Part shown: one piece after another, positions 4,572-48,895 of the stretch
How positions within the stretch are numbered: the stretch's first letter is position 1
Layout: each line of letters opens with the position of its first letter
Assembly: GCF_016899935.1 (NCBI RefSeq)
Contig: NZ_JACJJK010000004.1
Location: 1-64,000 of the forward strand
Reading direction: 5' to 3'
Length of the DNA: 64,000 nucleotides
Source of the DNA: Olsenella uli
GTDB lineage: Bacteria; Actinomycetota; Coriobacteriia; Coriobacteriales; Atopobiaceae
Position numbers and translations under genes: made by a program
The notes under the pieces: model-generated
The model's database searches: none
Seen by the model: the letters and a program-made list of their open reading frames with translations, nothing else
What the model was told of the DNA's origin: nothing

Positions 4572-4590
4572 GCGCGGCGGTCGGGGGTGG

Positions 4591-4796
4591 CGTCGTCCCG
4601 GAATTGGCGGGGTTGTTCCAAGGGCGTCTAAGAATTGCGGGGGTTGTCCCGTTGGCGGCCGCTTGAAGTGCGCAAGGCTGGCGATTCCTAGAGTTTTTCG
4701 GTCAAAGGTGCGATAAGGGCGGCGATTTCCGGAGGCCTGCGGGACAAAGGCGCAAATTCCTAGAAGACCCCGGAACAAAGTCCCGGAAAACGAGAA
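4591..4796. repeat. 31-bp phased palindromic repeat array A
   Basis: Degenerate copies of the CGACAAGGGCGGCGATTC / TGGAAG-type unit. To the right of about 4675 the units read forward with an exact 31-bp step (GATAAGGGCGGCG at about 4732, GACAAAGGCGCAA at 4743); to the left they are inverted (GGTTGTTCC, GGGTTGTCCC). The centre and right end closely match array C at 21 kb, including the ending GGAAAACGAGAAGC. Together with its flanks it fills the 320-bp gap between purH and the aminotransferase-like gene; no ORF with gene-like features is seen in it. Confidence 0.75.
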
Positions 4797-4829
4797 GCGC
4801 CCCGGCAGCCGCAGGGCCGACCGGGGCGC
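4797..4829 (-). terminator. Terminator of purH
   Basis: Stem GCGCCCCGG / CCGGGGCGC followed on the minus strand by CTTCTCGTTTTCC. It lies just beyond the stop-adjacent palindrome after purH. Confidence 0.65.
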
Positions 4830-10821: not shown

Positions 10822-10850
10822 ATCGTAACGCATCCGTCGCGCGTTGCCAA
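10822..10850 (-). promoter_or_regulatory. Promoter of tRNA-Leu
   Basis: TTGGCA (10845-10850), 17-bp spacer, TACGAT (10822-10827) on the minus strand. Confidence 0.7.
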
Positions 10851-10880
10851 GTGTTTTTCTCGCCGGGCGAGAAGGGCGGC

Positions 10881-11330
10881 GGGGTCCGGGAATCTGCGGG
10901 CTTGTTCCGGGCGATTCTAGGAATCGCCGGGTTTGTTCCGGGCGGTTCCAGGAATTCGGGCCCTTGTTCCGGTCGCCTCCGGGAATCGGCGAGCTTGTCC
11001 CGAGCGGTTCCGAGAATCGGCGACCTTGCACAGCCGAGACCCCTTTCCGCGCGACAAGGGCAGCGTTTTTAAGAAGCTCGTGCAACAAGAGCGCCAATTC
11101 CGAGAAGAACGCGCGACAAGGTCGGCTTATTTTAGATAGCCTTGCGACAAGGGCGTCCATTCTTGGAAGACCCCGCGACAAGGTCAGCGATTCCCGGATG
11201 CCAGCGCAACAAGGACGGTGATTCCTGGAGCGCCGCGCGACAAAGGCGGTGTTTCCCGGAAAGTCCTGCGACAAGGGCGGCGATTCTTGGAAGGCCCCGC
11301 AGCAAGGACGGCGCTTCCCGCCCGGACCGG
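10881..11330. repeat. 31-bp phased palindromic repeat array B
   Basis: The longest array, about 450 bp. From about 11075 to 11330 units read forward: CGACAAGGGCGTCC, CGACAAGGTCAGCG, CAACAAGGACGGTG, CGACAAAGGCGGTG, CGACAAGGGCGGCG, each exactly 31 bp from the next. From 10881 to about 11030 the units are inverted (CTTGTTCC..GGAATC). It fills the gap between the tRNA-Leu promoter and the kinase promoter (TAGAAT at 11341). Short ORFs across it change frame with the 31-bp period and are not genes. Confidence 0.85.
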
Positions 11331-20868: not shown

Positions 20869-20900
20869 CGCTCCGCCTTCCAACGGACTTGCAGCCGCAG

Positions 20901-20935
20901 CCCCCGCTCGTGAATTCACGAGCGGGGGTTCTTCT
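20901..20935 (+). terminator. Terminator of the kinase/PBP cluster
   Basis: Perfect 28-bp palindrome (half-site CCCCCGCTCGTGAA) followed by TTCTTCTC. A half copy of the palindrome (GTGAATTCACGAGCGG) recurs at 20963-20978. Confidence 0.85.
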
Positions 20936-20989: not shown

Positions 20990-21248
20990 CGGTAGGCGGG
21001 CGCGTTCCCGGAATCGGCGGCCTTGTTCCGGGGACGTCCGAGAAACGCGGGGCTTGTCCCACGGACGCGCGCCAGAGGCGCGCAAGGCCGCCAGTTCCTA
21101 GAGTTTCTCGCCCAACAATACGACAAGGACGGCGATTCTCGGACCAACGCGGGACAAGGGCACGATTTACTAGAAGCACGCGGAACACGGTCGCGAATTC
21201 CCGGAAGCCCCTGGGACAAGGTCCGGCAAAACGGGAAGCATCCCCGAC
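20990..21248. repeat. 31-bp phased palindromic repeat array C
   Basis: Between pknB and tRNA-Arg(CCT). Forward units at about 21120-21240 (GACAAGGACGGCG, GACAAGGGCACG, AACACGGTCGCG, GACAAGGTCCGG) step by exactly 31 bp; inverted units lie at about 21000-21062. The centre (GCGCAAGGC..CCTAGAGTTT) and the right end (GGCAAAACGGGAAGC) match array A. There is no gene-like ORF in the 425-bp gap. Confidence 0.8.
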
Positions 21249-30996: not shown

Positions 30997-31011
30997 CCGC
31001 AGGCAGGACGC

Positions 31012-31275
31012 GTCTAGGTTTTGGCGGGCTTGTCCCGGCGGGCTCTAGGAACTGGCGAGGTTGCGCAGGCGAGAAGGACGACGGCCGCGCAAGGTCGGCG
31101 ATTCCCGGAATCACGGCGCGCAAGCCCGGCGATTTCCGGACGCCCTGCGACAAGGGCCGCAATTCCAAGAAGCCCGTGCAACAAGGGCGGCGATTCCTGG
31201 AAGCCTGCGCGACAAGGGCGGCCGTTTCTAGAACGACGGACGACAAGGGCGGCGATTCCTGGAAGCCCTCCGTCA
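31012..31275. repeat. 31-bp phased palindromic repeat array D
   Basis: Between purB and argH. Forward units from 31148: CGACAAGGGCCGC, CAACAAGGGCGGC, CGACAAGGGCGGCC, CGACAAGGGCGGC, each exactly 31 bp apart. Inverted units at about 31020-31065 (GGCTTGTCCC, GAGGTTGCGC). The turn between the two orientations contains GGCGAGAAGGAC. No gene-like ORF is seen in the 348-bp gap. Confidence 0.85.
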
Positions 31276-48029: not shown

Positions 48030-48895
48030 TCCGACCACGTCCCCGGACCGCTCAGTAGGTCGACGATGTGACCGAGCTGTTCCTCGTCGGAGAACTCGAT
48101 CTCAATCTTGTTCTTGCCGCGCACGTTCTTCACCTTGACGTTGGTGTCCAGCGCCAGGCGAATCTGACGGGCCGCCCGCTTGAAGGACTGGGGCGTCGGC
48201 ACCCTGACGGCCCGCTCGGTGCTCTCTGTGACAGAAAACAGTGGGGCGAGACTTTCTGTCTGACGTACCGACAGCCGCTCGTTGACGACCTTCTGTGCCA
48301 GCTTGATGCGGCCCTCCTCGCTGGGGACCGCAAGGATGGCTCGGGCGTGCCCGGCCGACAGGCTGCCCTCCTCGACGAGGTCCTGGACCTCCTCGGGAAG
48401 GTCGAGCAGGCGAATCGTGTTCGTGATCGCAGAGCGAGACTTGGAGAGAATCTTGGCAAGCTCCTCCTGGGTCAGGCCCTTGTCCTTGATCAGCTGGCGA
48501 TATCCTCGAGCCTCCTCGAGCGGGGTCAGGTCGGAGCGCTGGAGGTTCTCGATCAAGGCAAGCTTGAACACGTCGTCATCGGAGATCTCACGGATGACGA
48601 CCGGCACCTCGGTCAGGCCGGCAGCCCGTGCCGCCTGATAGCGGCGCTCGCCGGCCACGATCTCGTAGCCGTTTCCCTTCTTGCGGACGAGCAGCGGCTG
48701 CAGGATGCCGTTCTGTTTGATGGAGTCCGTCAGCTCGGCGAGGTCCTCAGCCTTGAAGCTCTTTCTCGGCTGATCCTTATTTGGCTTGATCTCGTTGATT
48801 GGAAGCGTCGAGTCCGGTCGCATCCCCGCCGTCTCGGCATCCGCCTCACCGACGAGAAGACCCAGTCCCTTTCCGAGTCCGCTCTTCTTAGCCAC
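48026..48895 (-). CDS. parB: Chromosome-partitioning protein ParB
   Basis: 289 aa CTP-dependent parS-binding clamp. N-terminal SGLGKGLGLLVG (ParA-contacting), ParB/Srx domain with QPRKSF, EIVAGERRYQAARAAGL and LIENLQRSDLTPLEEA, helix-turn-helix LTQEELAKILSKSRSAITNTIRLL, and a C-terminal dimer domain. Start is a GTG at 48895 overlapping parA by 8 bp. Three parS sites lie at 49.7-50.0 kb. Confidence 0.97.
   Translation of the reverse strand: MAKKSGLGKGLGLLVGEADAETAGMRPDSTLPINEIKPNKDQPRKSFKAEDLAELTDSIKQNGILQPLLVRKKGNGYEIVAGERRYQAARAAGLTEVPVVIREISDDDVFKLALIENLQRSDLTPLEEARGYRQLIKDKGLTQEELAKILSKSRSAITNTIRLLDLPEEVQDLVEEGSLSAGHARAILAVPSEEGRIKLAQKVVNERLSVRQTESLAPLFSVTESTERAVRVPTPQSFKRAARQIRLALDTNVKVKNVRGKNKIEIEFSDEEQLGHIVDLLSGPGTWSE

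Follow-up and report, generated by a model that had tools for sequence, protein, structure and literature searches.

Four two-armed arrays in the window

The window, that is, the whole 64-kb stretch of DNA that was analysed, holds four two-armed arrays of a degenerate repeat unit, at 4589-4802 (array A), 10878-11298 (array B), 20999-21243 (array C) and 31006-31270 (array D). Array B lies between the promoter-like site of a tRNA-Leu and a kinase gene. The features are as follows.

4589..4650, minus strand: array A minus arm, 2 units, step 31
4651..4668: array A centre, 18 bp
4669..4802, plus strand: array A plus arm, 4 units; steps 41, 31, 31
10822..10850, minus strand: promoter-like site of tRNA-Leu, directly left of array B (TTGGCA, 17, TACGAT; 9/12 consensus matches)
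10878..11032, minus strand: array B minus arm, 5 units, step 31
11033..11050: array B centre, 18 bp
11051..11298, plus strand: array B plus arm, 8 units, step 31
11299..11329, plus strand: degenerate ninth unit of the array B plus arm (scoring 14.9 bits with the first model and below threshold with a later one)
20999..21060, minus strand: array C minus arm, 2 units
21061..21078: array C centre, 18 bp
21079..21243, plus strand: array C plus arm, 5 units; steps 41, 31, 31, 31
31006..31067, minus strand: array D minus arm, 2 units
31068..31085: array D centre, 18 bp
31086..31270, plus strand: array D plus arm, 6 units; steps 31, 30, 31, 31, 31

The sequence-only reading had placed a 31-bp repeat array at the position of array B, and 13 units above 12 bits, five on the minus and eight on the plus strand, are indeed found there in addition to the degenerate unit. 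That reading had described the exact 31-bp step for the right arm; it holds there and is equally constant on the left, all tandem steps of both arms being 31 bp. The two arms stand in inverted orientation on either side of an 18-bp centre, facing one another at a head-to-head distance of 49, and this layout recurs in arrays A, C and D. Within the right arm of array B the fraction of matching bases is 0.65 at a lag of 31 and 0.67 at a lag of 62, against 0.23-0.30 at six other lags tried, and Tandem Repeats Finder reports a period of 31 at arrays B and D. The motif model gives 34 hits above 12 bits in the window, forming the four arrays that had been claimed for these 64 kb, whereas 60 dinucleotide-preserving shuffles of the window give a mean of 0.30 hits (maximum 3) and no array. 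A model built from the right arm of array B alone recovers units of A, C, D and the left arm of B; given that at its threshold of 10 bits each shuffle yields about 4.1 hits, isolated hits of this looser model are meaningless.

Arrays A and C can be aligned over their entire length, and in both the first plus unit is followed by a 41-bp step, which suggests exchange between the two loci. The words CGAGAAG and CGAGAAG(A/G)AC are strongly over-represented in the noncoding DNA of the window (for example at 20898-20930), with 23 copies of CGAGAAG in 7.9 kb and a presence in 16 of 32 longer gaps, often as the tail behind terminator-like hairpins. As a signal of the array centre CGAGAAG was rejected, since it is a general intergenic word of the genus and occurs in only 16 of 134 centres. 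A ParB gene lies at 48539-48808 (G000:C81, G000 being the genome of the window), and the window is probably near the origin.

The unit and the kind of signal

The core of the unit comprises C5 A6 A7, C11, T17 T18 and G23 A24, positions 25-31 are nearly free, and the unit is asymmetric (non-palindromic); the innermost units start somewhat differently. Across 1074 distinct units mutual information is strong only for neighbouring bases (21-22, 9-10 and 3-4), no covariation was found along possible stems, and six of six single units fold no better as hairpins than their shuffles. Array B taken whole folds better than shuffles (z -3.3), and Rfam at gathering score gives six matches in the window, all tRNA and none to the arrays. 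A reading as RNA structure or as an Rfam family was rejected on the lack of stem covariation, of unit folding and of an Rfam match, and so was pairing between the arms, given that at free positions mirror units resemble each other no more closely than non-mirror units do (0.426 versus 0.433 in G000; 0.421 versus 0.417 in other species).

Adjacent units agree at 0.93-0.94 over the eight core positions, a figure partly favoured by unit detection itself, and at 0.45-0.48 over the free positions, where units from different arrays agree at 0.39-0.42. With adjacent units only 0.48 alike at free positions, against 0.42 between arrays, they are not fresh duplicates of one another. These statistics fit one asymmetric protein site per three helical turns and, on sequence grounds, the arrays are very likely protein-binding arrays.

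A genome-wide set

The 62-bp two-unit model R1 has at least 177 matches in G000, all R1 and R2 genome counts given here, the order-wide search included, being lower bounds. In the stretches around these matches there are at least 40 arrays, lying between genes and comprising 398 units. Their tandem steps are 31 bp in 284 of 306 cases and 30 bp in 12 (the remainder being 32, 41, 44 and 61-63), their head-to-head distances are 49 bp in 32 of 46, and 37 of the 40 run simply from a minus arm to a plus arm with fixed centre and polarity, the other three being higher-order repeats. At the loci of other species 487 of 505 tandem steps are 31 bp and 63 of 88 head-to-head distances are 49 bp. Odd spacings are mostly in phase: counted by hand, 13 head-to-head distances beyond 48-50 and 79-82 (38 twice, 39 three times, 60, 70 twice, 89, 90, 101 twice and 111) all lie within 1.3 bp of whole turns relative to 49, and ten tandem steps fall beyond 30-32 and 61-63, of which seven keep the phase (41 six times, and 20) and three do not (29, 34 and 44). 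Distances of 61-63 and 79-82 reflect in part one missed unit.

The argument of the sequence-only reading, that selection on helical phase points to protein binding, is supported by these searches: the step is constant in at least 40 arrays with free positions near saturation, and the steps of relatives exceed it (41/42) or fall short of it (20-21) by about one turn. With period and orientation tabulated within the genome and across species, the 31-bp step stayed constant among diverged units; in the searches made, the copies were not confined to the window, the period was not variable and no identity to a described family appeared.

None of the 40 arrays lies inside a gene as predicted by a purpose-made gene finder trained on the window, and eight array ends run 1-11 bp into a gene end. 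At six array ends (L034, L041, L050, two arrays of L051, and L054) the overlap with the adjacent gene is about 11 bp, and there the CTAG of the outermost unit would provide the TAG stop of the gene. The gene pairs around the 40 arrays are codirectional in 20 cases, convergent in 12 and divergent in 8, compared with 122, 24 and 22 for all 168 neighbouring pairs in the fetched loci. The neighbours examined are mostly housekeeping genes, and a regulon was rejected on account of their diversity. Between arrays, 22 of 780 G000 pairs are more similar than every one of 1770 simulated pairs.

Distribution, turnover and loss

At E 1e-6, R1 matches occur in 8 of 31 genomes of the genus: at least 125 in G000, 124 in G004, 102 in G014 and 66 in G023, and at least 7 in G022, 3 in G040, 2 in G006 and 1 in G003. 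Across the order at least 9 of 395 genomes have matches, eight being those of the genus and the ninth the MAG G195. Listed as Collinsella, G195 has two contigs (L070 and L071) with arrays like those of the genus of G000; given that the L071 array has units in common with an array of G040, this MAG is probably contaminated. In T. provencensis two lone 31-type arrays (L069, 6383-6617 and 13204-13500) stand around a mannose-type PTS/SIS operon, with no evident partner gene in the pair or the sugar-PTS operon that it brackets. The two arrays stand beside an IS3-type fragment, and horizontal transfer is their probable origin.

For at least 33 of the 40 arrays of G000, the fetched loci of other species include one with an array at the syntenic position. 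Unit number differs between species in 68 of 71 orthologous comparisons, and orthologous units, counted outward from the centre, are hardly more alike than random units, so that most unit-by-unit homology has been lost. In line with this, only 14% of the 71 orthologous array pairs score above the 99th percentile for random pairs. Nevertheless, some centres are clearly common to species, as at locus L049, which indicates that the array sites are inherited.

In G040 and G003 a related motif, GCGAGAAGGTCGCCGATTCCGGGACG, recurs at a 41-bp step in the same two-armed layout, with at least 101 matches to its model (R2) in G040 and at least 89 in G003; seven of the 41-type arrays of this pair of genomes were examined, and four of them occupy array sites of G000 (L074 and L076 the same one). 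A motif-free scan identified two-armed arrays that differ in motif and step in G001, G005, G042, G044 and G045, at 42 bp in G029 (of another family) and at 20-21 bp in G033, and found none in many of the stretches sampled. No similar array was found in phages and plasmids. Two further kinds of intergenic repeat were encountered: MITE-like elements (L083 and L197 in G001, L077 in G024, L086 in G045 and L088 in G010), whose terminal inverted repeats vary by copy around a similar interior near CTGCGGATAT, and an inverted family of few units, GGTTAG-N4-TACCGGCGCGTCCCC (L087 in G003, L085 in G040, and L261).

A five-gene tree places G024 as sister to G000 (98) and G006 as sister to G004 (98) within a six-species clade (100). 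Neither R1 nor R2 finds a match in G024, whose genome is 89% complete. G006 lacks the 31-bp set and carries just two 41-type arrays; at ten G000 array loci located in its fetched sequence no 31-type array remains, gaps are down to 2-15 bp, and two loci hold apparent relics, read by eye.

A candidate partner gene

The candidate partner gene of G000 lies outside the window, at C49:250020-251114 (L327 1279-2373), encodes 364 residues and is flanked by arrays at L327 711-1007 and 2381-2923. Its family has 2-10 members in each of the 31 genomes of the genus and is present in 9 of 16 genomes tested beyond it (15 from other families or genera of the order, and G195). Two of 30 best-hit family loci were dropped as too short; the noncoding flanks of the remaining 28 hold helical-step arrays in 18 cases (on both sides in 12) and non-helical ones in four, compared with 4 and 1 of 30 control loci carrying an unrelated gene, and all four helical-step control positives fall at one site known to hold arrays in array-bearing genomes. 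Ten of the 28 give no helical-step signal. The flank arrays have steps of 30-31 and 40-43 with a motif that varies by genome, and a 591-bp neighbour gene that marks the G000 locus is absent at 9 of the 18 positive loci.

The flank motifs of G044 and G005 form an array at another locus of their own genome (L092 and L103) and none in about 1.05 Mb of other genomes, and that of G016 forms a doubtful array elsewhere in its own. In 11 of 14 tests, each covering 19-83 kb, no recurrence in the own genome was found; searched against about 1.03-1.10 Mb from other genomes, the 14 motifs together yielded six arrays. Outside the genus the same count gives a weak association, as 30 family loci include ten with helical-step repeats (one on both sides) and 12 with other steps. 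A few of these arrays are nonetheless clearly two-armed on visual inspection, L385 (31 bp) plainly so, and at L379 stepped repeats (52 bp) flank the gene on both sides.

The species with a 31-bp set, namely G000, G004, G014 and G023, carry orthologs that are 80-82% alike and are flanked by arrays on either side, and G003, with the 41-bp set, has an ortholog at 73% that also lies between arrays. In G006 the Tyr and His conserved in the nuclease motif are gone from the copy, which also runs on at its end; the best copy in G024 is 55% identical, and that of G001 is without the conserved Tyr and His and has no array alongside. Within the clade, an intact copy goes with arrays in four of four species and a missing or degraded copy with their absence in two of two. 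There are two exceptions: first, G040, a near-identical sister of G003, has a full 41-bp set, yet its best family member is at 55% and has no helical-step array beside it, for which recent gene loss is offered as an excuse rather than a result; second, G029 carries a 42-bp array, yet the family search at 1e-5 gives no match there. With 2-10 members per genome, some of the nearness of gene and arrays must be due to chance. It is nevertheless likely, from position and co-occurrence, that the protein encoded by the candidate gene binds the arrays.

The G000 protein has no match in Pfam or NCBIfam. Over the family, MTES_1575 matches 8 of 28 members (best E 3e-5, the two scores shown singly both lying below the cut-off) and DUF559 one (0.0018), and the best PDB profile matches, both weak, are the endonuclease-like protein 3hrl (0.017) and the mobile intron protein 3r3p (0.063). 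D225 and R261 are invariant in the 28 members, with Y244, H249 and D258 at 90% or above, and these Asp, Tyr, His, Asp and Arg columns we take to be a nuclease motif. AlphaFold2 on three sequences gave a mean pLDDT of 39.3. No relatives were found in the viral contigs, phages or plasmids searched. The domain may be a nuclease of Vsr/DUF559 type, an assignment for which these matches give weak grounds.

Discussion

Comparison with known systems bears on what the arrays are. As the sequence-only reading had held, they are not CRISPR, which was rejected because the 31-bp step is the degenerate unit itself, with seven free bases at which adjacent units are 0.48 alike. ParB/parS was rejected given that ParB occurs in 29 of 31 genomes with or without arrays and that the unit is asymmetric, a parS site being a palindrome. 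Plasmid Rep iterons are asymmetric sites of about 20 bp arranged head to tail in helical phase, and the arrays resemble them as direct repeats in helical phase; unlike iterons, they form at least 40 chromosomal arrays with two arms and a fixed centre, and no replicon was seen. REP, BIME and REPIN elements, of which the earlier reading had already excluded REP, were rejected since 1074 units show no stem covariation and six of six show no folding beyond that of shuffles; Y1_Tnp (RAYT-type) matches are not tied to arrays, with none in G004 and one in G000 compared with three in the array-less G024 and two in G006. REPIN/BIME-RAYT systems comprise many dispersed intergenic elements with inverted parts and one linked chromosomal gene of nuclease type (PMC8049555). 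To that extent the arrays are similar, being dispersed, intergenic, built of inverted parts and associated with a candidate nuclease-type chromosomal gene, but their units are non-palindromic with a 31-bp helical step, no hairpin and no link to a Y1 transposase, and their candidate partner is a Vsr/DUF559-like protein. BldC of Streptomyces forms asymmetric head-to-tail oligomers on variable numbers of direct repeats, its protomers binding 9-bp repeats (PMC5859096); the arrays share the head-to-tail asymmetric sites and the variable repeat number and differ in the 31-bp unit, the two facing arms and neighbours that are not regulon-like. The candidate protein itself resembles Vsr/DUF559/MTES_1575-type nucleases (3hrl, 3r3p) in weak profile matches over its putative nuclease part and in its conserved columns; it differs in that the similarity is weak, a conserved N-terminal part has no family match and the gene is coupled to phased arrays.

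It is suggested that the arrays serve as platforms of double-stranded DNA on which a single sequence-specific protein binds. Every three helical turns this protein would recognise an asymmetric core, about 24 bp long with a consensus near GGGACAAGGGCGGCGATTCCTGGA; its copies would stack in head-to-tail order along one face of the helix, starting from the centre, where two copies would face each other. The most likely candidate is the product of the chromosomal gene at G000:C49:250020-251114, which has about 364 residues and a putative nuclease domain of Vsr/DUF559-like type. The arrays would be under selection while this gene is intact and be lost once it decays, and when the protein changes its specificity and spacing the arrays of the genome would change along. 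They would most likely hold, neutralise or self-mark the nuclease-like protein of a genomic-conflict (defence or addiction) system. Whereas the arrays, their phasing and turnover, the association of gene and arrays and their linked loss in one clade are observed, binding, filament, nuclease activity and function are read from sequence. Taken as a whole, from phased platforms and nuclease-like binder to linked selection and conflict function, we consider this explanation probable. The lean towards a conflict system is due to the rapid change of specificity, the multi-copy, nuclease-like nature of the family and the joint disappearance of gene and sites.

The next best reading of function is chromosome organisation, in which a host nucleoid protein on the arrays would build loops or boundaries between transcription units. 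The position of 40 of 40 arrays outside predicted genes, the sites common to another species in at least 33 of 40, the mostly housekeeping neighbours without a regulon and the location of array B between the promoters of two divergent genes are in its favour, and conserved array sites also fit it. Even so, it is rather unlikely, given that whole sets are absent from G024 and G006, where convergent genes are only a few bases apart, that close species differ in motif and step, and that ParB occurs with or without arrays. Somewhat less plausible is that another protein binds the arrays and the nuclease-like gene just happens to lie in intergenic regions rich in them: the exceptions G040 and G029 and the multi-copy family speak for this, whereas the count of 18 of 28 family loci compared with 4 of 30 controls, over varied genomic positions and motifs, speaks against it.

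An improbable alternative is a mobile or homing element, the array-gene-array unit being the full element and lone arrays non-autonomous copies spread by nuclease and repair. The gene does lie between two arrays in many species, 3r3p is a mobile-intron nuclease structure, if weakly matched, the 22 of 780 exceptionally similar array pairs would follow, and two lone 31-type arrays of T. provencensis stand beside an IS3-type fragment; however, units and arrays are not homogenised (0.48 between adjacent units at free positions), no target duplication was found in the junctions inspected, and no relative was found in viral contigs, phages or plasmids. Bidirectional terminators or roadblocks are more doubtful still: convergent pairs are enriched at arrays (12 of 40 compared with 24 of 168 overall in the fetched loci), yet 20 arrays are codirectional and 8 divergent, and in the array-less G006 just 7-27 bp separate these convergent genes, where no terminator is seen to have taken the place of the array. 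Neutral tandem repeats or satellites maintained by slippage, to which the unit numbers (differing in 68 of 71 comparisons) and the three higher-order repeats might be ascribed, can hardly be credited with a step and core that stay constant while free positions are saturated, or with the fixed centre and polarity of 37 of 40 arrays.

Beyond what had been noticed in the window, two arms are the rule, motif and step vary between species, sites are shared and there is a candidate partner gene. A literature search gave no description of such arrays among the matches listed, and arrays and partner gene together point to an undescribed protein-and-array system in this gut bacterium and its relatives. 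More tentatively, this may be an undescribed two-part genome-conflict system of Coriobacteriales, in which a Vsr-like nuclease-fold protein and dozens of phased arrays of its own site, with a lineage-specific motif and a whole-turn step, would be retuned or lost together, the arrays acting as sink or self-mark. If the preferred reading of phased platforms for a nuclease-like protein is true, bacterial chromosomes bear a large, fast-evolving class of protein-binding arrays tied to a nuclease-like gene, which would have gone unnoticed because the sequence varies by species and only the architecture and the helical step are kept. Close relatives with or without the set, and with 31- or 41-bp steps, provide a natural experiment in which the co-change of a DNA-binding protein with hundreds of dispersed sites can be studied, and the system gives a direct test of the role of an orphan nuclease-like family.
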